21,695 bases of DNA from a virus: positions 1-21,695 of the IMG/VR virus record IMGVR_UViG_3300023174_004917; one strand, given 5' to 3'. Position numbers and translations under genes: made by a program. This document shows, piece after piece, positions 2 through 14,480 of this stretch (position 1 is the stretch's first letter; every line of letters starts with the position of its first letter). The notes beneath the pieces were generated by a model that ran no database searches, was not told the origin of the DNA, and was given only the letters and a program-made list of their open reading frames with translations.

Positions 2-1456
2 TATCAAGTTTTTCCTGAAAGAGTTAATTTAGGTTGGACTGCGGAGTTCATGTTGAGATACAGATGGACTGGAGATACTTCAGGAGGTCTTAACAATCGT
101 TATCCAAACAACAAAGGAACTTTCTTTTACATGGGAGCAAGAGCCGAAAACAAATTTTATCACTACGCTGACGGTCATCCAAAACAAGATACAGGATATA
201 CAAGAGTTACTTCTGGTTTAACTTGTATGCACACTTGTGAATGTGAACAAACAGGAATTACCGCATCTCACGGATGTCTACCTGTTTATCAACCATCAGG
301 TGTTACGTCGACAACTTGTATGTGTGGATGTCCTTGTAGTTGTGAAACTCACGCAGAATATCCAGAAAAAGACCCATTGTTCGATGAAGTATCAAACGCA
401 CTATCATTAAGATTAAGTGGAGACACAGGTAGTCCAAAACTTTGTATTAAAACATATACACTAACTGGTCATTGTGAGGCAACGGGAACTTGTCTTACCG
501 GACAAACATACGTTACAGGAACATCCATAAATGAGTGGTGTTCTACAAGAGGAATCTTTGATGATTGTTCAGGAACCACTTATGCAAATGTTGAACATTG
601 GGTTCAAATTGACGTTGTCTTTAGAAGAAGGGAATGGTTTGGTGAATGTGACTTGTGGGATAAAGGGGGGTTAGGTTTAATAGTTTCAGAGCAATATACC
701 GCAACAACAGCAAATAATAGTATTAGTTTAATACAACCACCAATAACACACGAAAAAGATTATGACCCGGCAAAAACTGAAGTTGTTAATTTTAGTAATG
801 ATTGGCTTGTTGAGGAACCTTTCAGAGTTGGTACTTTAAAAATTTATGTTAATGGTAAATTATTCATGGTTGCTGAAAATTTTGAAGAAATCATACCAAG
901 ACTTTTAAATGTTGAAAAAGAAAAACAAATAGGTGTTGGATACAACATCTCTTTAGGTGGAGGAACTCAAGGACTACACGATAACTTAACTTTCTCAGGA
1001 GGGTGTCCTGATACGGTCGATGAAATAGTTTATCAACAAGACCCTGAATGCTTAACAACAAATGACTTAGACCATACAATTTATTCGGGTTTAACAACTC
1101 AAATACATTTGGAAGAAATCTTTGGTGGTAGTATGATTGGGGATATTAGTGCGTTTAGAATGTATACTGAACCATTGGATGCGGGACAAATAGCTCACAA
1201 CTACAGAGTGTTAAAAAACAAATATAACTTATTAAATCCAAATTGCCCTAATTGTGTTATTGTAATACCAAACAATGACCTATATTATCTATCATTCCCT
1301 TGTAATGATTTATATTATACAATGTATGTATGTCCTACACCAACACCAACTGTTACTCCATCGGTGACTCCAACCAACACCCAAACACCAACTAATACCA
1401 AAACCAACACTCCGACACCAACTAATACTCCAACATTAACACAGACTCCAAGTTAA
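2..1456 (+). CDS. Modular surface/adhesin protein with LamG-like domain and Thr/Pro-rich tail (5' partial)
   Basis: The reading frame is open to the left window edge, so the true start lies outside; the first internal ATG is at 50. Three parts can be seen. First, a segment (about 224-343) with nine cysteines in about 40 residues, including CxCxCxCxC spacing. Second, a region (about 590-1230) that reads like a LamG/concanavalin A-like jelly-roll: alternating strands, a 'GTLKIYVNGKLF' strand, and near its end 'GDISAFRMYTEPL' followed by 'NYR..KNKY', a common closing pattern of such domains. Third, a C-terminal tract of about 40 residues, almost only Thr, Pro, Asn and Ser (1331-1453). It is followed after 11 nt by another Thr/Pro-rich gene. 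It is likely a virion surface protein that binds carbohydrate or decorates a fibre. The fold call rests on pattern reading, not a search. Confidence 0.6.
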   Translation, partial: YQVFPERVNLGWTAEFMLRYRWTGDTSGGLNNRYPNNKGTFFYMGARAENKFYHYADGHPKQDTGYTRVTSGLTCMHTCECEQTGITASHGCLPVYQPSGVTSTTCMCGCPCSCETHAEYPEKDPLFDEVSNALSLRLSGDTGSPKLCIKTYTLTGHCEATGTCLTGQTYVTGTSINEWCSTRGIFDDCSGTTYANVEHWVQIDVVFRRREWFGECDLWDKGGLGLIVSEQYTATTANNSISLIQPPITHEKDYDPAKTEVVNFSNDWLVEEPFRVGTLKIYVNGKLFMVAENFEEIIPRLLNVEKEKQIGVGYNISLGGGTQGLHDNLTFSGGCPDTVDEIVYQQDPECLTTNDLDHTIYSGLTTQIHLEEIFGGSMIGDISAFRMYTEPLDAGQIAHNYRVLKNKYNLLNPNCPNCVIVIPNNDLYYLSFPCNDLYYTMYVCPTPTPTVTPSVTPTNTQTPTNTKTNTPTPTNTPTLTQTPS

Positions 1457-1467
1457 ATTTAATATAA

Positions 1468-2025
1468 ATGTATACAACAGACTGCAATTATTTTAAGATA
1501 ACAAACTATAATACCGTTCAACAAGGGTATTATGCTTGGACAGGTTGTACTGGAATTTATAGTGTTACACCAATTGACCCTTTACAGTCTCATTATGTTT
1601 GTGCTAAAGATTTATATGCTCAAGATTGTGGAGCTCCTTTAACAATTGTATTTGCCGGATTATGTCCTTCTATTACACCAACACCATCATTTACACCAAC
1701 TCCTACACCGACAAATATTACTCAAACACCAACTCCTACACCAACTTTAACACCAAGTCTTACTCAAACTCTTATCCCTGTTTATAATTTGTGGGGTGCA
1801 GGATATTTTGAAGATGCGTGTGGTGAAGCGGGATATGGACCATCAAATGTATCGTTTTATAGTGTAATTTCTTTTGAGGCATTACAACCTGGTGATTATG
1901 TTTATGGGAATGCGGCATTAACAATTCCTCCTATTTTCCAAGGTAATATAGTTTCGGATGGTGCTGTGTGGGTACAATTTGATATTAATAATGGCCTTGT
2001 CCTTGACACGGGTATTTGTTTTTAG
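1468..2025 (+). CDS. Small modular Thr/Pro-linker protein, probable virion surface protein
   Basis: A 185-residue protein of three parts. The N-terminal module (residues 1-66) is beta-rich and has scattered cysteines (DCNYF, TGCTG, YVCAKD, QDCGAP). A Thr/Pro linker of about 35 residues follows (1663-1771). The C-terminal module has a cysteine near each end (EDACGE and DTGICF), with a pattern of short strands around 'VSFYSV', 'PGDYVYGNAAL' and 'DGAVWVQF'. This kind of repeat-like module recurs in Bacteroidota and phage surface proteins. No signal peptide or membrane segment is visible, as expected for a virion part rather than an exported protein. The start follows 11 nt after the previous stop, so the genes are probably cotranscribed. 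Exact function is unknown. Confidence 0.55.
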   Translation: MYTTDCNYFKITNYNTVQQGYYAWTGCTGIYSVTPIDPLQSHYVCAKDLYAQDCGAPLTIVFAGLCPSITPTPSFTPTPTPTNITQTPTPTPTLTPSLTQTLIPVYNLWGAGYFEDACGEAGYGPSNVSFYSVISFEALQPGDYVYGNAALTIPPIFQGNIVSDGAVWVQFDINNGLVLDTGICF

Positions 2026-2042
2026 AAAACAAAATAATTAAG

Positions 2043-2050
2043 TATTTATA
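2043..2050 (+). promoter_or_regulatory. TATTTATA motif before the mucin-like gene
   Basis: The sequence AG-TATTTATA ends 3 nt before the ATG at 2054. It is one of eight sense-strand TATTTAT copies found just upstream of genes in this window. It may be a phage promoter core or an initiation-enhancing element; the function is not shown. Confidence 0.4.
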
Positions 2051-2053
2051 ATC

Positions 2054-3199
2054 ATGTCTGATTGTGGTGTTTCAATTTTTAGTAATAACTTGAGTGGTTT
2101 AACCGCCAATGTTACCTTTTATCCTTGTTCTGGTGGAACAATTGATTTGGGTCAACAGACCTTTCCATTTTCATATGAGACCGATTATTGGTATGGGACA
2201 TACGATTGTTATGTTCCCTATTATGCATTTAATTATGTTTTAGATGTACCGTGTCCAACACCTACTCCAACTCAAACTTCAACTCAAACATCTACACCAA
2301 CAACAACTCCAACACCATCAGTCACAGTTGGTTTGACACCAACGATGACGGAAACTCCAACACAAACTCCAACTAAAACACCAACACCAACTCCTACGGT
2401 AACAATAGGTTTAACTCCAACCGCAACTCAAAGTCAAACTCCAACACCAAGACCAACTGAAACTCCAACTAATACTCCTACAAATAGTGAAACGCCAACT
2501 AATACACCAACTAATACCGAAACACCAACGAATACTCCTACACTAACTAATACACCAACTAATACCGAAACACCAACAAATACTCCTACACCAACACCCA
2601 CACCAAGAGCTGCAGTTCCATTTAATTTTGATTTTGATTATATGTTATGTGAATATTTCTTTACTGATGGTACTGATATGGACACTGTCACTTATATGAC
2701 AGTACCGTCAATTATGGAAACAACACCATCTGACCCTAATCCTAATATCGGTCCTGTTAATGGTAAGTATTATAATTATGTTGGTACTTGTGCGGTATCA
2801 GACAGTGGTCCTCAATACCCATTATCACCATCAACACCATTTTTAACTTATGGTGGTGATAATAGAAGTGCAAGTGGTACTGAATCAGTGTTATTTAATT
2901 TAATTGAGTTTAAGAGTCAAAATCCAGGTGTTGTAAATATCCAATTCGCATTCACTGCAGATTGGTTTGGTGATGTAGGTATTAATCCTGTTATTATGAA
3001 AGCAACTTTATGGAAAGGAGGCACACCAATATATTTCGGAGACCCTGATTACACATGGACTAATCCAACAGCAACAGGAACATATTCAGTAAATTCCATT
3101 GGTCAAGTAATTACTTTAAACGTACAAGATTGTGAACCTTATGAGTTAGTTTCAAATTTACAATATAATACTTCGACTTACCAAGGACAGTTCAATTAA
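2054..3199 (+). CDS. Mucin-like Thr/Pro-repeat protein with N- and C-terminal beta modules
   Basis: A 381-residue protein. Residues 1-66 form a Cys-containing beta module ([22 protein letters not shown]). Residues 67-185 are an uninterrupted Thr/Pro tract of about 119 residues with Gln, Asn, Glu and Lys spacers; it includes a near-exact 48-bp tandem duplication (2498-2590). Residues 190-381 form a globular domain rich in Asn, Gly and Tyr with no recognised family. The long, charge-poor, extended tract should behave as a rod or spacer and offers many Thr acceptors for O-glycans. The ATG at 2054 sits 3 nt after a TATTTATA motif. Neighbours on both sides have the same architecture, and glycosyltransferase genes follow the operon terminator. 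A fibre, adhesin or capsid decoration role is inferred. Confidence 0.55.
2498..2590 (+). repeat. 48-bp tandem repeat coding for a 16-residue Thr/Pro unit
   Basis: A 45-nt stretch starting at 2498 recurs from 2546 with one mismatch, a period of 48 bp (16 codons: [15 protein letters not shown] plus one variable residue). The period is a multiple of three, so gain or loss of a unit keeps the frame. The rest of the Thr/Pro tract is repetitive at protein level but more degenerate at DNA level. Confidence 0.85.
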
Positions 3200-3242
3200 A
3201 AACATTTTTTTTCTCTCTTTAATAAATTAGAATAATTCGTAG

Positions 3243-3250
3243 TATTTATT
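3243..3250 (+). promoter_or_regulatory. TATTTATT motif before the small Thr/Pro gene
   Basis: AG-TATTTATT lies 17 nt before the ATG at 3268, in a 68-nt AT-rich intergenic gap with no other clear signal. Same motif family as at 2043 and 16315. Confidence 0.4.
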
Positions 3251-3267
3251 AGTTAAATAAGAATATT

Positions 3268-3561
3268 ATGTCATGTAGTAAATATACTCTAACAAATACA
3301 GGTTCCTCAATTGTGAACTTCAGTTATCAAAGATGCGACGACGCGATGTGGGAATATCAAGTTGAGATTAATCCAAATCAAACAAAAACAATTTGGTTAT
3401 TAGACCCAACTTATTCAACAGCTTTTTCATCAAGCATTGTTAAAATTGATTTGGGGGCTTTTCCTCCAACAGATAATGGTCCAACCTTAACCCCAACTCA
3501 TACCCCAACACCAACAGGTACTCCTTCGGTTACTCCTACACCAACTCCAACACGTCCTTAA
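3268..3561 (+). CDS. Small Cys-containing beta module with Thr/Pro tail
   Basis: A 97-residue protein. The first 67 or so residues form a compact beta module starting 'MSCSKYTLTNTGSS', with 'NFSYQRCDD' and a 'NPNQTKTIWL' strand. It has the same general pattern as the N-terminal modules of the two genes upstream: a cysteine, a Y/F-x-hydrophobic-x-N strand, a second cysteine about 20 residues on, and a Pro/Asn turn. The last 27 or so residues (3478-3558) are a Thr/Pro tract that ends the protein. It is the smallest of the four Thr/Pro proteins, and a rho-independent terminator follows 32 nt later. A TATTTATT motif lies 17 nt before the start. No family can be named with certainty; a surface-exposed virion or decoration role is inferred. 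Confidence 0.5.
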   Translation: MSCSKYTLTNTGSSIVNFSYQRCDDAMWEYQVEINPNQTKTIWLLDPTYSTAFSSSIVKIDLGAFPPTDNGPTLTPTHTPTPTGTPSVTPTPTPTRP

Positions 3562-3592
3562 TTTTTTTAATTAAAAATAATTTTATACATTT

Positions 3593-3626
3593 AAACCCTA
3601 TTCTTTTGGATAGGGTTTTTTATTTT
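3593..3626 (+). terminator. Rho-independent terminator after the Thr/Pro gene block
   Basis: A 9-bp perfect stem (AAACCCTAT, 3593-3601, with ATAGGGTTT, 3610-3618) and an 8-nt loop are followed by a T-rich run. It separates the four Thr/Pro-rich surface genes from the glycosyltransferase block that begins at 3645. Confidence 0.85.
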
Positions 3627-3644
3627 TAAAACAAAATACAATTA

Positions 3645-4913
3645 ATGAGCAAAATTTTTATTCAAATCGCATCATATAGGGACCCACAGTTAATCCCAAC
3701 TTTAAAAGATATGATTGCAAATGCCAAGAAACCAAAAAATTTGGTTTTTTCAATCGCAAGACAATTCAGTGAAACCGATGGTTTCGATAACCTTGATGAA
3801 TTCAGAAACGACAAAAGATTTAAAATCTTGGATATTCCTTATCAAGATGCAAGAGGAGTTTGTTGGGCAAGAAATTTAACTCAACAACTATATGGTGGTG
3901 AGACTTATACAATGCAAATCGATTCTCACATGAGATTTGTTAAAGATTGGGATGATATCCTGATTAAAATGATAAAGGGGTTGCAAAAGGATGGGTATAA
4001 GAAACCTCTACTTACGGGTTATGTACCTTCCTTTGACCCTGATAATGACCCTGCGGGTAGAGCACAAGATGCTTGGAGAATGGCGTTTGATAGATTTATT
4101 CCTGAAGGTGCGGTATTCTTTTTACCTGAAACAATTCCTGGATGGAGAGAAATGAAAAAACCTGTAACGGCAAGATTTTATTCGGCTCACTTCTGTTTCA
4201 CATTAGGTGAATTTTCAAAAGAAGTTCAACACAATCCTGAATACTATTTCCATGGAGAAGAAATTTCAATCGCAGCAAGAGCTTACACTTGGGGTTATGA
4301 TTTATTTCATCCTCACATTCCTGTGGTTTACCATGAATATACTCGTAAGGGTAGAACAAAACAATGGGACGATGATAAGACTTGGGGTGACAAAAATAAA
4401 CATTCACATTTAACAAATAGAAAGTTATTTGGAATGGATGGCGAAACCCAAGAAGGTCACGATGGTCCTTATGGTTTTGGTACTGTTAGAACATTAAGAG
4501 ACTATGAAAAATATTCTGGTTTGTTATTTGAAAGAAGAGCAATCGACAAACATTGTTTAGACAAACAATATCCACCAAGTCCTTATAATTTTGAAACAGA
4601 AGAAGAGTGGAAGGATAGTTTTGCAACAATATACAAACATTGTATTGACGTTGGTTACACAAGCGTACCTGAAAAAGATTATGATTTTTGGGTGGTTGCA
4701 TTTCATAATGCTAAAGATGAAACGTTACATAGAAGAGATGCAGATAAGAATGAGATTGCTGGTTTCATGAGAGACCCTGACGGATACTGTAAAGTTTGGA
4801 GAGAATTCCAAACCACAGAATTACCAACATATTGGGTTGTTTGGCCTCACTCAGAATCAAAAGGTTGGTGTGATAGATTAACGGGTCAGTTAAACCACAA
4901 CAACGTTAGTTAA
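3645..4913 (+). CDS. Glycosyltransferase of the GlcNAc-transferase (Skp1 Gnt1-like) family
   Basis: A 422-residue GT-A-type enzyme. Residues 4-16 (FIQIASYRDPQL) match the opening strand of the GlcNAc glycosyltransferase family (PF11397). Further signs are ARGVCWAR at 69-76, the metal-binding QIDSHMRF with D93-S-H95 in place of a classical DXD, and FHGEEISIAARAYTWGYD at 202-219 followed by H230 in YHEY. These are the core motifs of that family, whose founding member adds GlcNAc to a hydroxyproline of Skp1 in Dictyostelium. About 90 C-terminal residues with 'FHNAKDETLHRRD' and 'TYWVVWPHS' form an extra region of unknown role. The gene heads the glycosyltransferase block and its stop overlaps the next start by 1 nt (TAATG). 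The sugar and acceptor cannot be read from sequence; the Thr/Pro proteins upstream are plausible acceptors. Confidence 0.82.
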   Translation: MSKIFIQIASYRDPQLIPTLKDMIANAKKPKNLVFSIARQFSETDGFDNLDEFRNDKRFKILDIPYQDARGVCWARNLTQQLYGGETYTMQIDSHMRFVKDWDDILIKMIKGLQKDGYKKPLLTGYVPSFDPDNDPAGRAQDAWRMAFDRFIPEGAVFFLPETIPGWREMKKPVTARFYSAHFCFTLGEFSKEVQHNPEYYFHGEEISIAARAYTWGYDLFHPHIPVVYHEYTRKGRTKQWDDDKTWGDKNKHSHLTNRKLFGMDGETQEGHDGPYGFGTVRTLRDYEKYSGLLFERRAIDKHCLDKQYPPSPYNFETEEEWKDSFATIYKHCIDVGYTSVPEKDYDFWVVAFHNAKDETLHRRDADKNEIAGFMRDPDGYCKVWREFQTTELPTYWVVWPHSESKGWCDRLTGQLNHNNVS

Positions 4914-5656
4914 TGAAATTTAATGAAATACCAAAGTTTGTTGTTAATTTAGAAACAAGACCTGATAATCTTGAACTTATAAAAAAAGAGATGGATTATA
5001 TTGGTTGGGAGTTTGAAAAGTTCAACGCGGTAAATAGAAACAGTTATATGGGTTGTACCCTATCTCATTTGGAAATTATTAAAATTGCCAAAGAAAGGGG
5101 GTATGATAGAGTTATGGTTATTGAAGACGATTGCGTATTCATGCCATACGCCAAATCCCTTTTAGATGACATTGAAAAACAAACTGAAGGTATTGAATTT
5201 GGTGTGTTTAATATAACTCCGACTTTAAATAGGAAACTTAATCCGAGCGATAAATATGATTTATTATTAGACATTACAAATATTCCTCCAAAAGAAGAAC
5301 ATCATACTGAAACATTTGCAACAAATATTTTAATCTATGATAAGTCAGTATATGACGAAATGTTTAATATTGCTTTGACCGCATTTACTGAATCAGGAGA
5401 TTATTATTTTCCAATAGACGGGTACCTTGTTAAATTTATTTATCCTAAGTTTCAAAGTTATTGTGCGGTATTACCTATTGCACCACAAAGAAATTCGTAT
5501 TCTGACGTTTCTCATGGTATGTATAATAACTTCTATACTCAAACGTATAATTGGAATTTATATTCTCCCAAGAAACTTCCAAACGAATTTAAAAGTGAGC
5601 AGGAGAATGAAAAAATAAAAGAAGAAAAAAAACACATTCAATATTATGTCAGTTAA
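4913..5656 (+). CDS. Glycosyltransferase family 25 (LPS/protein glycosyltransferase-like)
   Basis: A 247-residue protein with the GT25 signature. An N-terminal 'VVNLETRPDNLELI' strand (residues 10-23) is followed by 'MGCTLSHLEIIKIAKE' (46-61). Next comes 'VMVIEDDCVF' with the catalytic/metal-binding E71-D72-D73. Family members transfer hexoses to lipopolysaccharide in bacteria, and animal relatives galactosylate hydroxylysine in collagen, so protein acceptors are known in the family. Length fits a single-domain enzyme. The ATG overlaps the stop of the GlcNAc-type gene by 1 nt and the stop lies 11 nt inside the next gene, so translational coupling is likely. There is no Shine-Dalgarno sequence. 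The substrate is unknown. Confidence 0.8.
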   Translation: MKFNEIPKFVVNLETRPDNLELIKKEMDYIGWEFEKFNAVNRNSYMGCTLSHLEIIKIAKERGYDRVMVIEDDCVFMPYAKSLLDDIEKQTEGIEFGVFNITPTLNRKLNPSDKYDLLLDITNIPPKEEHHTETFATNILIYDKSVYDEMFNIALTAFTESGDYYFPIDGYLVKFIYPKFQSYCAVLPIAPQRNSYSDVSHGMYNNFYTQTYNWNLYSPKKLPNEFKSEQENEKIKEEKKHIQYYVS

Positions 5657-6527
5657 ATTTATAACATCGATTTATAGTGATTTACACGGAACAGAATTAG
5701 GTGGTAGAACAGGTAGAAATGGTCATTATAGATATAGTTTATTGTCATTATTAAAAATGACGGATGCTGATTTTTTATGTTATACGTCAGATAGAGAAAT
5801 AGAATCATTAAAAGAATTTTTCTATACAGATAATAAAATTTCAGAAGAAAAATTAAAGTTTCAAATTTTTAATATTAGTGATACTAAATTTAAAGATTTA
5901 ATTAGTAAAAGAAAAAATATAGACCAAATTAAACAAGGGGATAGATGTGTTGAGATTCAATACTCTAAGTTTCATTGGTGGTGGAATGAGGATAAATCTT
6001 ATGATTACTATTATTGGATTGATGCAGGATTTTCTCATTGTGGGTTAATTCCACCAAAATATTTACTTGGCGAACATCCTCAAGCAAGATATTATGAAAG
6101 TAGTTTATTTAGTAATGATTTTTTGAAAAATTTGATTGAAGATACTGGTGACAAATTTTTAATTTTAGGTAAAGAGAATGATAGGAACTATTGGTCAGGA
6201 ACTGTGAACCCAAAATGGTATACTGAGTATGATAGAAGTATTCACATTATTGGTGGTATGTTTGGTGGTCACAGAGATAAGTGGGATACTATAGTTAGTA
6301 TGTTTGAAAGTTATATTGAGAATGTATTAACTGAAGATGAGGGATTACCTCACGAAGAACAAATAATGAGTTTGATGCACGTAAATCATAGAGATTTATT
6401 TGTAAGAAAACATTTTGATATATGGTGGTATAAAGGTAACTCCCCTTCAGGAGTATCGGACGAGATGTTCGAACAAAATAAAAGTTTTTATAAAATATTA
6501 GAAGAATTTAATAGAATTTATGAGTAA
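5646..6527 (+). CDS. HtrL/YibB-like protein, putative glycosyltransferase
   Basis: A 293-residue protein resembling the HtrL/YibB family (PF09612), whose members sit in polysaccharide or LPS loci. Key visible stretches are 'YYYWIDAGFSHCG' (residues 121-133), 'HIIGGMFGGHRDKW' (200-213) and 'LPHEEQIMSLM' (234-244). The same ordered landmarks (WIDGG, GGFFGG, EES) occur in the N-terminal half of the next gene, so the two look like diverged paralogues from a duplication. The WID(A/G)G strand may play the part of a GT-A metal-site strand; this is inference. The gene overlaps its neighbours by 11 nt (upstream) and 8 nt (downstream), placing it firmly in one translation-coupled operon with the other glycosyltransferases. 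Biochemical function is not established. Confidence 0.55.
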   Translation: MSVKFITSIYSDLHGTELGGRTGRNGHYRYSLLSLLKMTDADFLCYTSDREIESLKEFFYTDNKISEEKLKFQIFNISDTKFKDLISKRKNIDQIKQGDRCVEIQYSKFHWWWNEDKSYDYYYWIDAGFSHCGLIPPKYLLGEHPQARYYESSLFSNDFLKNLIEDTGDKFLILGKENDRNYWSGTVNPKWYTEYDRSIHIIGGMFGGHRDKWDTIVSMFESYIENVLTEDEGLPHEEQIMSLMHVNHRDLFVRKHFDIWWYKGNSPSGVSDEMFEQNKSFYKILEEFNRIYE

Positions 6528-8190
6528 AATAACTTTAGTAACCGGTATATGGAATATCGGTAGAGATGAATTACAGGAAGGATGGTCAAGACCATTCCAA
6601 CATTATTTGGATAAATTTTCTCAATTATTAGAGGTGGATACCAACATGATAATTTTTGGAGAAGAAGAATTAAAAGATTTTGTCTTTAGTAAAAGAAGTA
6701 GAGAAAACACTCAATTTATTACAAGACCATTAGATTGGTTTAGAAACAATGAGTTTTTTGATATGATTCAAAAAATAAGAACTAATGAATCTTGGTCAAA
6801 CCAAGTTGGTTGGTTAAAAGAATCAACACAAGCAAGATTGGAAAATTACAATCCTCTTGTAATGTCTAAAGTATTTTTACTTAACGACGCTAAAATCATG
6901 GACCAATTCAATTCGGAATATTTGTTTTGGATTGATGGTGGTTTAACAAATACCGTTCACCCTGGTTACTTTACTCACGATAAAGTTTTAGATAAATTAT
7001 CTAAACATATTTCTAAATTTTCATTCATTTGTTTCCCTTATGATGCTGAAACTGAAATTCATGGATTTGAATATAATAAATTAAATTCAATTGCTGGAGA
7101 TAAGGTAACAAAAGTTGCTAGAGGTGGTTTCTTTGGTGGTCCTAAAGATTCTATTAGTGATATTAATGGAATTTACTATTCATTATTAAAGACAACCTTA
7201 GATGAGGGATATATGGGTACTGAGGAATCTATTTTCAGTATTATGTGTTATAAACATTCTGATATTATAAATTATTTTGATATTGAATCAAATGGTTTAA
7301 TTGGTAAGTTTTTTGAGGATTTAAAAAATGATACCCTTAAAACTAAAAATGAAAGTAAGGTTGTTGTAACAAATAATTTGGACACCAATAAAGTTGGTCT
7401 ATATGTTATAACATTTAACAGCCCAAATCAATTTAGAACTTTAATTAAATCAATGACTGAGTATGATAAAGATTACTTACTTAAAACTGAAAAGTTTTTA
7501 TTAGATAACTCTTCTGACGAATCTACCTTTGAAGAATACGCTAAACTTTGCGAAGAACATAACTTTACTCATATCAAAAAAGATAATTTAGGAATATGTG
7601 GTGGAAGACAATTTATTGCCGAACATTTTGATACAACAGATTTAGATTATTATTTATTCTTTGAAGATGATATGTTTTTCTTTCCAAATGAAGGGGTTTG
7701 TAGAAATGGGTTTAATAGATATGTCCCAAACCTATACACCAAGTCATTAGAGGTTATGAAAAAAGAAAATTTTGATTTCTTAAAACTTAATTACTCAGAA
7801 TTTTACGGAGATAATGGAACCCAATGGGCTTGGTATAATGTACCTCAACATGTTAGAGAAGAATTTTGGCCAGGTAAAAACAGATTACCTGTTCAAGGGT
7901 TAGACCCAAATGCACCAAAAACAGTTTATAGTAATGTCTTATCCCACAAAGGATTACCTTACTCAGTTGGTGAAGTTTATTACTGTAATTGGCCACAACT
8001 TGTTAGTAGACCTGGAAACCAAAAGATGTTTTTAGATGTGACATGGGCACACCCATTCGAACAAACATGGATGAGTCATATGTATCAGTTAGTTAAAAAA
8101 GAGGAATTATATCCTGGATTACTACTTTTAACCCCAACTGAACATAATAGATTCGAACATTATGACGGGGGTCTTCGTAAAGAGTCATAA
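6520..8190 (+). CDS. Two-domain glycosyltransferase: HtrL/YibB-like domain fused to GT2-like domain
   Basis: A 556-residue fusion. Residues 1-265 match the HtrL/YibB pattern: 'ITLVTGIWNIGRDEL' at the N-terminus, 'YLFWIDGGLTNTVH' (134-147), 'ARGGFFGGPKDS' (200-211) and 'GTEESIFSIM' (233-242). After a linker (266-290), residues 292-400 look like a GT-A family 2 domain: 'VGLYVITFNSPNQF' as first strand, 'LLDNSSDES' (327-335), 'NLGICGGRQF' (356-365) as the acceptor/donor loop, and 'YYLFFEDDMFF' (377-387) with the DXD-type E382-D383-D384. The remaining 155 or so residues, rich in Trp, Tyr and His, belong to the GT2 half or a third domain. The start overlaps the previous gene by 8 nt. It probably carries out two sugar-transfer steps; substrates are unknown. 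Confidence 0.7.
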   Translation: MSKITLVTGIWNIGRDELQEGWSRPFQHYLDKFSQLLEVDTNMIIFGEEELKDFVFSKRSRENTQFITRPLDWFRNNEFFDMIQKIRTNESWSNQVGWLKESTQARLENYNPLVMSKVFLLNDAKIMDQFNSEYLFWIDGGLTNTVHPGYFTHDKVLDKLSKHISKFSFICFPYDAETEIHGFEYNKLNSIAGDKVTKVARGGFFGGPKDSISDINGIYYSLLKTTLDEGYMGTEESIFSIMCYKHSDIINYFDIESNGLIGKFFEDLKNDTLKTKNESKVVVTNNLDTNKVGLYVITFNSPNQFRTLIKSMTEYDKDYLLKTEKFLLDNSSDESTFEEYAKLCEEHNFTHIKKDNLGICGGRQFIAEHFDTTDLDYYLFFEDDMFFFPNEGVCRNGFNRYVPNLYTKSLEVMKKENFDFLKLNYSEFYGDNGTQWAWYNVPQHVREEFWPGKNRLPVQGLDPNAPKTVYSNVLSHKGLPYSVGEVYYCNWPQLVSRPGNQKMFLDVTWAHPFEQTWMSHMYQLVKKEELYPGLLLLTPTEHNRFEHYDGGLRKES

Positions 8191-8195
8191 CAATA

Positions 8196-8203
8196 TATTT
8201 ATT
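8196..8203 (+). promoter_or_regulatory. TATTTATT motif before the small beta protein gene
   Basis: TATTTATT ends 3 nt before the ATG at 8207, the same spacing as at 2043 and 16315. This supports 8207 as the real start rather than the upstream in-frame ATG at 8162. Confidence 0.35.
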
Positions 8204-8206
8204 GTT

Positions 8207-8587
8207 ATGGAATTTTATATCAAGAAGAATGCGACCCTACCTGTTTTAAAAATGCAGGTTGTTAAAGACGGAAGAGCTGGCTATATCCAACTAATGCAAG
8301 ATTTGGAAGTATCGACTATTTTCTTTTCAATGGTTGATGTTTACAACGGTATTCCAAAAATTGTTTCTGCTCCGTGTTATATTGTCCCCCTTATCTTTGC
8401 AGAAGACGGGGCACCAACAGAATATTATATTTATTATCAATTTAATGAAAGGGATACAAATACACCTGGCAGATATCAAGGTCAATTTTTAATTAAAAAT
8501 GATGAGGGTAATTTAATTTTACCTATCAGAGAAGACTTGTATATTAATATCCAAGATAGTTTTATTTCTGAAACTGCGTGTTGTTAA
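8207..8587 (+). CDS. Small beta-structured protein, BppU N-terminal-like baseplate/receptor-binding module
   Basis: A 126-residue protein from the ATG at 8207. An in-frame ATG at 8162 would add 15 residues but would overlap the upstream glycosyltransferase by 29 nt, and its extension looks unlike a protein start. The order of strands recalls the BppU N-terminal fold of phage baseplate/receptor-binding proteins: 'FYIKKNATLPVLKMQVV' first, then 'IQLMQDLEVSTIFFSMVDV', 'EYYIYYQFNERDTNTPGRY' followed by 'QGQFLIK', and a closing 'LYINIQD'. The 'DTNTPGRYxGxF' turn is the most telling part. It follows the glycosyltransferase operon closely and probably encodes a virion part. The match is a pattern judgement and could be coincidental. 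Confidence 0.45.
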   Translation: MEFYIKKNATLPVLKMQVVKDGRAGYIQLMQDLEVSTIFFSMVDVYNGIPKIVSAPCYIVPLIFAEDGAPTEYYIYYQFNERDTNTPGRYQGQFLIKNDEGNLILPIREDLYINIQDSFISETACC

Positions 8588-12941: not shown

Positions 12942-14480
12942 TTATTCGATGTTTAACTTTAAAGCATCGATTGGAAACACATAATTACCATTAAATATCT
13001 TAGGTTTTTTGTTAAAAATTAAAACGTTTTTTCCTTTTTGGAATATCAATAAATCGGTACTATAATACTTAACCTTACCAGTACCAAGAAGTGTAATAGT
13101 TCCTTTTTCTTCGTCAACTATTTTAACTTTGAATGGTTTAACTTGTGCAGTTTCTGTCTTGCCTCCACTTGTCAATTTCAAATCAATTCCTGATAATGCA
13201 TCTTCTTTACTACCAAGTTTACCAATTTGTTCTATCTTAACATCTTTACCAAAATATCTTCTTAATATGGCTGCTGTTATTTCTTCTCTCTTATCCCCCA
13301 TAGCGTTTTTCTCTTCAAGAGTCTTCATTATGTTAACAAACGTTGAACTTTTAGTATCAAAAATTTTATATTTAAAATGGTCTAAAGCGTTAACAAATCT
13401 TTCAACTTCTTTAAGTTGTTCGTTAGGGTTTTTACCTTTAAATACAATTGGTTTTTTACCTTCTATTGTTTTAATAACTTGGTTGATGTCGCTAAGTAAA
13501 ATACAGAACGTTGTGTAGTTTGTGTTTAATTTATTAATAACAGACCTTCCTTCATTTTCTAAATTGAATATCCCCGGTAATTCACCCTTAGGTGGATTGG
13601 AAACATATAGGTCACTAAAGACCTCAATTAATATTCTTTCGATTCCGGCTCTATATCTTGATTCAATATCTTTGTGTGTGTTGAATAACTTTCTATAAAA
13701 ATCAGTTTCTTCAGGTGAACATGCTTCTGATTTTGCTTCAGACATAAGTTTTTTTAATTCTGTAGACTCAGTTAATTTTGTCTTGGTCTTCATTTTGTAC
13801 ATCTTGGTTACAAAATCCCAGTTCACAACTTTCCAAAAGTTTGCAATATATTCGTCTCTTTTGTTTCTGTATTTTAAATAATATGCATGTTCCCATAAGT
13901 CTAATCCTAAAAGTGGAAACCCACCGTTCTCAATAACATTCATTAATGGATTGTCTTGATTAGGTGTCGACATTATTTTCAAAGTATTTCTTGTTGTTAA
14001 TACTAACCATACCCAACCTGAACCAAATCTGTCTTTAGCAACTGCTTCAAACTTTTTCTTAAAGGTAGGAAAACTTCCAAAGTCTTTTATAATTTTCTTG
14101 TAAAGGTCTCCTTCTAATTTCTTTGGAGTTGGGGTCAACATATTCCAAAACAGTGCGTGGTTAAATGCCCCACCTGCGTTGTTTCTAATTGATTTATCAA
14201 ACCTACTTATCGTTTTGATAATTTGTTCTAACTCTACATCCCCATATTCTTTCTTTGATAAAGCACTGTTTAACTTGTCTACATAACCTTTATAGTGTTT
14301 GTTGTAGTGAAAGTTCATTGTCTCTGCGTCAATGAATTGTTTGAGGGCGGAATAGGAATAGGGTAATTTTTCTATTCCAATTTTTTTCATTTCAGTTATT
14401 AACTGATTGGCTTGTTCTTCAACTTTTGATTCAATTATCTTATTTTCTGTAAGTTGAATTTTCTCTTCTATTTTGTTCAT
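12942..14480 (-). CDS. Fe/Mn superoxide dismutase domain fused to a nuclease-like C-terminal domain
   Basis: A 512-residue fusion in one unbroken frame. Residues 38-225 form a full Fe/Mn-SOD domain: 'LPYSYSALKQFID' opening, H58 in MNFHYNKHY, H108 in GGAFNHALFW, the 'FGSGWVWL' core at 152-159, and D194-x3-H198 in LDLWEHAYYL. All four metal ligands are present, so activity is plausible. A linker rich in Lys, Glu and Ser (226-255) leads to a helical region (260-390). The last part (395-512) shows 'SGIDLKL' with D433, then 'ETAQVKPF' with Q446-V-K448, after a helix with E400. This is the D-x(n)-(E/Q)xK arrangement of PD-(D/E)xK nucleases. The gene lies between helicase and neck genes on the same strand. 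The SOD call is strong; the nuclease call is inference. Confidence 0.8.
   Translation of the reverse strand: MNKIEEKIQLTENKIIESKVEEQANQLITEMKKIGIEKLPYSYSALKQFIDAETMNFHYNKHYKGYVDKLNSALSKKEYGDVELEQIIKTISRFDKSIRNNAGGAFNHALFWNMLTPTPKKLEGDLYKKIIKDFGSFPTFKKKFEAVAKDRFGSGWVWLVLTTRNTLKIMSTPNQDNPLMNVIENGGFPLLGLDLWEHAYYLKYRNKRDEYIANFWKVVNWDFVTKMYKMKTKTKLTESTELKKLMSEAKSEACSPEETDFYRKLFNTHKDIESRYRAGIERILIEVFSDLYVSNPPKGELPGIFNLENEGRSVINKLNTNYTTFCILLSDINQVIKTIEGKKPIVFKGKNPNEQLKEVERFVNALDHFKYKIFDTKSSTFVNIMKTLEEKNAMGDKREEITAAILRRYFGKDVKIEQIGKLGSKEDALSGIDLKLTSGGKTETAQVKPFKVKIVDEEKGTITLLGTGKVKYYSTDLLIFQKGKNVLIFNKKPKIFNGNYVFPIDALKLNIE

Follow-up and report, generated by a model that had tools for sequence, protein, structure and literature searches.

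Glycosylation of proteins in phage particles is known from few cases. Protein glycosylation has been called rarely identified in phages by the report on phage XacN1 (PMC5852040). Among cellular systems, the Skp1 enzyme Gnt1 belongs to the CAZy family GT60, which also includes an enzyme of Trypanosoma cruzi (PMC6939170); the latter adds α-linked N-acetylglucosamine (GlcNAc) to threonine (Thr) residues of mucins (PMC3769586). Here we analyze a virus record of 21,695 bases (IMG/VR record IMGVR_UViG_3300023174_004917, referred to as the window), in which four genes with tracts rich in Thr and proline (Pro), g1 to g4, are followed by four genes of glycosyltransferase type, g5 to g8. We think it likely that this locus specifies a phage-encoded, mucin-type O-glycosylation of tail/adhesin tracts that is started by g5.

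Thr/Pro tracts and the adjoining glycosyltransferase genes

A first-pass annotation of this DNA had described four Thr/Pro-tract genes directly before four overlapping glycosyltransferase-type genes, and the coordinates of the open reading frames (ORFs) confirm this order. All eight genes lie on one strand (+), with g5 to g8 directly 3' of g1 to g4 and overlapping by 1, 11, and 8 bases. The first gene, g1 (2-1456), is cut at its 5' end and encodes a tail/adhesin-type protein ending in a tract (1334-1450). It is followed by g2 (1468-2025), encoding a small protein with a tract at 1675-1755; g3 (2054-3199), with a tract at 2255-2605 and a C-terminal phrog_24956 domain (~2837-3190); and g4 (3268-3561), in which a conserved N-terminal domain precedes a tract at 3481-3552. 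Measured as maximal-scoring segments (+1 for Thr or Pro, -1 for any other residue), the tracts of g1, g2, g3, and g4 are 39, 27, 117, and 24 residues long. The lengths first given as 40, 119, and 27 thus hold for g1, g3, and g4, and the 35 residues claimed for g2 shrink to 27. Composition-preserving shuffles reached the observed tract scores of g1 to g4 in 0, 0, 0, and 1 of 1000 trials, respectively.

Thr occupies alternate positions in these tracts. In three of the four window tracts, where Thr makes up 45% and Pro 26% of the composition, the probability of a Thr two residues after a Thr is 0.88; it is 0.82 in a 321-kb relative (G002) and 0.75 in XacN1, and the probability of a Thr at the very next position is 0.02-0.07 in the tracts of all three. 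For the g3 tract the +2 value is 0.87, compared with a mean of 0.45 and a maximum of 0.65 in 5000 shuffles. Pro accounts for ~25% of tract residues, all four Thr codons are in use, and synonymous codons are mixed. Thr at alternate positions encoded by mixed codons therefore points to selection on the protein rather than to a DNA repeat, and the mixed codons rule out a DNA microsatellite as the origin of the tracts. Animal mucins are not known to alternate Thr as strictly as the window tracts do.

The proposed initiating enzyme, g5 (3645-4913), matches the PF11397 glycosyltransferase family with 225.7 bits (cutoff, 21; E = 1.5e-66). Its QxDSHxRF motif (~3915-3938) includes D93, S94, and H95, which are invariant in 17 of 17 sequences and which we take to be a DXD-like metal/nucleotide motif; PF11397 itself presumably coincides with GT60. 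A structural model built with 17 sequences (predicted local distance difference test score [pLDDT], 87) retrieved only polypeptide N-acetylgalactosamine (GalNAc)-transferases at Foldseek ranks 1-42, with template modeling (TM) scores of ~0.4-0.5. A VIA-align run, which was a second look at Foldseek's own g5 matches, placed the same enzymes at ranks 1-29 (Z of 22.0-18.9, 10-13% identity), followed by SpsA (Z of 16.7). The nearest of 999 chains aligned over 276 residues with a Z of 22.0, a root mean square deviation of 3.8, and 11% identity. By model, then, g5 has the fold of the GT27 catalytic domain, which is a resemblance of fold and not family membership. GT27 enzymes carry a ricin-type lectin domain at the C terminus; the C-terminal part of g5 (residues ~326-415), compared only within the whole model, is strand-rich, and many aligned ranges stop near 330. 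Searches of PDB sequences with g5, g7, and g8 profiles gave 0 matches at an E value of ≤1.

The other three enzymes are proposed extenders. The product of g6 (4913-5656) is a GT25-type transferase (PF01755, 8.8e-11) whose profile finds weak PDB matches to mimivirus R655 (0.0042) and a procollagen galactosyltransferase (0.095). For g7 (5646-6527), a PHROG search and a Pfam search up to an E value of 1 gave no match, and the HtrL_YibB cutoff was not reached. Its model (pLDDT, 90) has a predicted GT-A-like fold (best Foldseek E value, 7.5e-7; TM score, ~0.4-0.5; sugar-nucleotide transferases also in the list), and g7 is related to the N-terminal half of g8 (hhalign, 98.7%; E = 2.1e-16), making it an HtrL_YibB-related transferase. 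That half of g8 (6520-8190) is an HtrL_YibB domain at ~6526-7275 (PF09612, 64.2 bits; cutoff, 24.1; E = 1.9e-17), and the C-terminal part weakly matches a glucosyltransferase family, phrog_842 (beta-glucosyl-HMC-alpha-glucosyltransferase, 1.2e-5). The highest 19-residue hydropathy in g5 to g8 is only 0.56-0.99, so no membrane helix is expected in any of them.

Pairing of tracts and PF11397 enzymes

To describe the window's clade, we used the best 80 of 354 g5 relatives in viral contigs (g5 identity of at least 85%; contigs of at most 326 kb). A tract ORF lies 5' of g5 within 1.5 kb in 77 of the 80 loci, which is every locus with upstream DNA; the other three (L030, L051, and L062) have at most 156 bases of sequence upstream of g5. 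The nearest tract ORF ends a median of 81 bases upstream of g5, and less than 150 bases upstream in 70 of 77. Proteins of the g4 type carry a tract in 74 of 74 cases among the 80 loci, with lengths of 24-267 residues beside an N-terminal domain of 64% median identity; the tracts are thus dense and variable in length, as would be expected of mucin-like acceptors. Genome-wide, G002 has nine tract ORFs.

Outside the clade, g5 relatives were found in 3 of 50,697 phage records at an E value of 1e-5, namely, XacN1, CM1, and RAS14 (43-46% identity), and among phage records only these three have a g8 match covering at least 80%. XacN1 encodes homologs of g5 (46%), g7 (32%), and g8 (43%) in the order g5, carbamoyltransferase, g7, g8. 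The order is the same in RAS14, where the second gene was likened to the XacN1 carbamoyltransferase by eye. We compared these three with 19 further phage records drawn by similarity to the polymerase (16), the sheath (2), or part of g8 (1). The pattern ACNCCNACNCCNACNCCN occurs 29 times in XacN1, 19 times in RAS14, and 19 times in CM1, and 0 times in the other 19 records; a backwards version gives 0, 1, and 1 in the three. PF11397 is present in 3 of the 22 records, exactly those with the Thr/Pro pattern. For g5 in these 22 records, the enzyme is hence not equally common in phages without Thr/Pro proteins; equal frequency is what the first-pass annotation had named as refuting its idea. Similarly, 13 of 17 contigs found with the XacN1 g5 contain the pattern.

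We also picked viral contigs solely by a Thr/Pro DNA pattern or, as a control, by its reverse; all counts from this test refer to the contigs and stretches listed. The best 80 of at least 120 Thr/Pro stretches included 42 contigs of at least 30 kb, of which 36 were searched; L188, L212, L216, L230, and L237 were dropped for having no tract ORF in the DNA examined, and L174 for appearing in both scans. For the control, the best 80 of at least 117 stretches included 28 contigs that reached 30 kb, of which 26 were kept and L174 and L230 dropped, and 15 of the 117 control stretches also contain a shorter forward pattern. PF11397 was found in 11 of 36 pattern contigs (2.95 Mb) versus 0 of 26 reversed-pattern contigs (2.15 Mb), with a p value of 0.0016. 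The 11 positive contigs have g5 identities of 87 to 34%, and among pattern contigs of at least 100 kb, PF11397 is present in 5 of 9. In two loci with a g5 of 38% identity (L165 and L166), the gap between the end of a tract ORF and the g5 ORF that follows is 17 bases.

In bacteria, including contigs of metagenome-assembled genomes (MAGs), 16 of 79 g5 loci have a tract ORF within 8 kb, the tracts including some Pro-rich repeats of a different type. In Jiulongibacter sediminis (4.5 Mb), a single gene, separated from g5 by 236 bases, contains 3 of the 3 pattern matches; in a Desulfobacterales MAG (5.3 Mb), 4 of 4 lie in an ORF with a masked stretch, at a distance of 291 bases from g5. Both genomes were chosen for their nearby tract, and the new fact is that no other match occurs genome-wide. 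At the Jiulongibacter locus (L440:5948-10812), the tract protein lies between two PF11397 genes, and a carbamoyltransferase relative and then a g8 relative lie beyond g5. Over the 1.12 Mb of bacterial loci, a rough Poisson baseline predicts 0.37 pattern loci, compared with 9 of 79 observed and 0 of 79 with the backwards pattern; the baseline comes from ten hand-picked genomes, two of them picked for a tract at the g5 locus, and several of the nine loci are homologous or resemble phage contigs within MAGs.

Several observations weigh against this reading of the pairing. Close relatives share neighbors by descent, so the clade by itself counts for little. The Fisher value for the 22 records (0.00065) overstates the pairing because XacN1, RAS14, and CM1 are one lineage, and the window and XacN1 lineages are not fully independent, since g3 and XacN1 ORF372 share phrog_24956. 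In the pattern test, removing three window-clade contigs leaves 8 of 33 versus 0 of 26 (p = 0.007); of the eight, five have a g5 of 59-72% identity, and at least two of these five also share the window's DNA polymerase B, at 68-72% identity. With only the three deepest contigs (40, 36, and 34%), the comparison becomes 3 of 28 versus 0 of 26 (p = 0.24). Only a few independent lineages, then, show the pairing of g5 with tracts. Further, 25 of 36 tract contigs lack PF11397, including four of at least 100 kb each (G035, G051, G060, and G066), so tracts occur without a g5-type enzyme or with another one. Among contigs with an XacN1-type g5, 4 of 17, all fragments of 20-40 kb, lack the pattern, and XacN1-type phages have 5-9 kb between g5 and the nearest tract gene, or no tract gene in the DNA examined. 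No tract ORF lies within 8 kb at 63 of 79 bacterial g5 loci, and a search of 10 bacterial genomes gave no pattern match in 6 of them; bacterial g5-g8 pairs may therefore often serve something else. Finally, the shared fold of g5 does not show its acceptor.

Candidate acceptor proteins, cassette exchange, and a proposed mechanism

The surroundings of the tracts point to tail proteins as acceptors. XacN1 has 15 tract ORFs, of which ORF369, ORF370, and ORF372 lie just beyond the tail sheath genes and ORF350 adjoins a structural protein; ORF370 also matches a virion structural family. The phrog_24956 domain of g3 is common to ORF372 (7.3e-41), which in turn gives matches to a tail protein of a crAssphage and to the product of a cyanophage gene beside gp9. 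By way of ORF372, g3 is distantly linked to crAssphage tail proteins. In these crAssphage and cyanophage relatives of the ORF372 domain, no tract was found (best score, ≤3), and neither comes from one of the three phage records that encode g5. At least two XacN1 glycoproteins are reported from proteomic analysis (PMC5852040). Only ORF328 and ORF334, the latter being the g5 homolog, are called transferases in that report (PMC5852040).

The end of g1 differs from that of its relatives. In L003, which is 99.5% identical downstream, g1 continues into a 287-residue tract and a C-terminal domain, and the window is ~2.7 kb short relative to it (window 1334-1462; L003:1-2931). From the sequence, g1 looks shortened, by deletion or by assembly collapse. 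Its short end is similar (73%) to a different tract of the locus, at L003:3906-4024. One possibility is that tracts serve as recombination points at which adhesin tips are swapped; another is that the g1 case is an assembly collapse. A longer g1 relative (L005:2733-7157) has a Laminin_G_3 domain at its C terminus, and g1 without its tract has no match at 1e-3 in phage records.

On the enzyme side, the middle of the cassette is exchanged among relatives. Across the 80 clade loci, g5 and g8 are each present in 80, g6 in 72, and g7 in 77; g6 falls within the exchangeable part. One to eight ORFs of at least 120 residues lie between g5 and g8, with two in 58 of the 80 loci. Ten inserted cassette genes were scanned, giving two GT10 fucosyltransferases, one methyltransferase, one weak GT2, one RXYLT1_C, and five without a match. 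In G002, genes ~5-13 kb from g1 encode GT2, GT4, GT10, and GT11 enzymes, methyltransferases, and two relatives of sugar-nucleotide epimerases. These inserted genes and the G002 glycan genes make a variable outer glycan likely.

Two side observations belong here. The RXYLT1_C match is a phage cassette gene (L072:11288-12676, 5.1e-9), and this domain is presumably that of an animal dystroglycan glycan enzyme. The run of glycan genes in G002 (L095:2112-9907, at 82-90 kb) is located near a tract gene and comprises GT2+GT4, GT2, FkbM, GT11, TylF, GT10, and two epimerase relatives.

From these data we infer how g5 would act on tract Thr, with which sugar, in what order of steps, where in the virion of the window phage, and to what benefit. 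Inside the infected cell and before assembly, g5 would attach the first sugar to the evenly spaced Thr residues; this sugar would probably be an α-linked N-acetylhexosamine donated by a UDP-sugar. The acceptors would be (T-P/T-x)n tracts on the phage's own tail/adhesin proteins, those of g1 to g4 here and more elsewhere in related genomes. Lengthening and variation of the glycan would then fall to g6, g7, and g8 or to whichever transferases and methyltransferases occupy their slot instead. The product may be stiff, glycan-coated stalks that keep adhesin domains away from the particle. Such a coat could, as the first-pass annotation suggested, aid adhesion, shield against proteases, or hide the particle from host defenses.

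A wider proposal, on which we would put only about even money, is that mucin-type O-glycosylation exists in a prokaryotic form, represented by this locus. Many large phages and some bacteria would encode a PF11397 enzyme resembling polypeptide GalNAc-transferases (ppGalNAc-Ts) together with its own (T-x)n acceptor and use the pair to build glycan-coated stalks, and an exchangeable cassette of transferases and methyltransferases would give each strain a "glycotype."

The small protein g9 (8162-8587), 3' of the cassette, may belong to the acceptor side because three of four homologs have a Thr/Pro tract. The tracts are in L425:13620-14465, L426:13073-14290, and L427:1584-2816; the L424 homolog and the window g9 are without one. 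The rest of the window encodes a family-B-type DNA polymerase, a head-tail adaptor, a protein with superoxide dismutase domains, a helicase, and a tail sheath. The dismutase-domain protein (12942-14480, - strand; 512 amino acids) has N-terminal Sod_Fe_N (2.2e-23) and Sod_Fe_C (8.7e-40) matches fused to a C-terminal half of unknown type, and a relative is present in 64 of 80 clade loci.

The window probably represents part of a jumbo phage genome of ~320 kb. Its genome type resembles that of the moraphages, jumbo phages that encode DNA polymerase B, helicase, and tail sheath proteins (PMC12619734), which are aquatic, reach 307 kb, and have predicted hosts mostly among the Bacteroidota. The moraphage core includes four putative glycosyltransferase orthogroups (PMC12619734); the likeness to the window is one of genome type and not a phylogenetic placement. 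In the main text of that paper, "threonine" and "proline" each occur 0 times (PMC12619734).

Other explanations and known systems

The tracts could instead be flexible linkers in tail fibers, and the transferases could merely share a variable appendage or host-interaction region and act elsewhere. Such an arrangement would fit the 25 of 36 tract contigs without a detected PF11397 gene, the kilobases between g5 and the nearest tract in XacN1-type phages, and the 63 of 79 bacterial g5 loci without a nearby tract. We nevertheless regard it as unlikely: PF11397 and tracts co-occur across the 22 records regardless of position, the sole pattern matches of two bacterial genomes lie in the gene beside g5, linkers do not need Thr at each second residue, and the tail-type domain has homologs, in one record of a crAssphage and one of a cyanophage, that do without a tract. 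Also very unlikely, in our estimate, is that the enzymes modify the host surface (lipopolysaccharide [LPS]/O-antigen or capsule) during infection. Adjacency to the tract genes would then stay unexplained, g5 to g8 have no expected membrane helix, and no flippase family appears among the Pfam matches of the nine window genes scanned, although no search aimed at flippases was made. The points in favor are that the description of PF01755 refers to LPS biosynthesis, that papers on lipooligosaccharide loci name HtrL, and that serotype changes of hosts by temperate phages are attributed to such enzymes (PMC12619734).

Two further readings keep the enzymes within the phage and change the acceptor. 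Following the precedent of Skp1, whose Gnt1 is a GT60 enzyme (PMC6939170), a phage 2-oxoglutarate (2OG) oxygenase might hydroxylate tract Pro and g5 might add GlcNAc. PF13640 oxygenases are indeed present in 10 of 16 records, and G002 has three 2OG-Fe(II) oxygenase-like genes (L092, L098, and L099). These are located at 28.7, 153.0, and 161.6 kb, far from g5 at 68.5 kb. A search confined to this oxygenase family found no PF13640 member in XacN1 or RAS14, whose genomes are recorded as complete and contain both tracts and g5, so PF13640 is not required; the regular residue, moreover, is Thr. Hydroxyproline is accordingly a highly improbable acceptor. To glycosylation of phage DNA bases we give a slimmer chance still. 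It would suit the phrog_842 match of the g8 C-terminal part, and one of the roles proposed for the transferases of moraphages is to glucosylate DNA (PMC12619734). On the other side, the closest folds of g5 are polypeptide transferases. The enzymes of G002 and XacN1 that resemble thymidylate synthase (TS) keep the PFN asparagine, at which deoxycytidine monophosphate hydroxymethylases differ from TS. PF00303 was found in 8 of 16 records, and Tet_JBP in 0 of 16 in a search that gave no positive-control match either.

The first-pass annotation had proposed that the enzymes glycosylate Thr or Pro-adjacent residues of the phage's own Thr/Pro proteins. The Thr part of this idea gains from the g5-tract pairing in several phage groups and two bacterial genomes, the ppGalNAc-T-like fold of g5, the XacN1 glycoproteins, and the neighboring tail genes; the Pro part finds no support, as XacN1 and RAS14 have enzymes and tracts without PF13640 and Thr is the periodic residue. 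If O-glycosylation of the tracts is correct, many of the large phages seen in metagenomes would bear mucin-type stalks, and transferases that are core in some jumbo phages, usually guessed to act on DNA, would gain a function. O-glycan engineering would also gain single-gene enzymes, each paired with its own Thr acceptor, and the finding would suggest that mucin-type initiation chemistry exists in prokaryotes. Among the matches listed from the open-access literature, no paper joining Thr/Pro tracts with phage glycosyltransferases was found.

The closest known counterparts are the GT27 polypeptide GalNAc-transferases and the GT60 enzymes of T. cruzi and Dictyostelium, which likewise have Thr/Pro-rich acceptors. 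The modeled fold of g5 is closest to that of ppGalNAc-Ts, and the T. cruzi GT60 enzyme acts on mucin Thr (PMC3769586, PMC6939170). Unlike those systems, the window enzymes are phage-encoded, show no membrane helix, and are 9-16% identical to the listed solved enzymes. Among phages, mycobacteriophages resemble the proposed system in bearing glycans on virion proteins (Freeman 2023, as cited in PMC12619734 and PMC12894461). Their glycans are reported at the C termini of capsid and tail tube subunits, unlike the dedicated Thr/Pro tracts on tail/adhesin-type proteins of the window. Glycoprotein staining was negative in ten other phages (PMC12894461). XacN1 differs from the window in the carbamoyltransferase that follows its g5, and "proline" occurs 0 times in the main text of its report (PMC5852040); it resembles the window in combining g5, g7, and g8 homologs with tract ORFs, and it is a phage with reported glycoproteins (PMC5852040).

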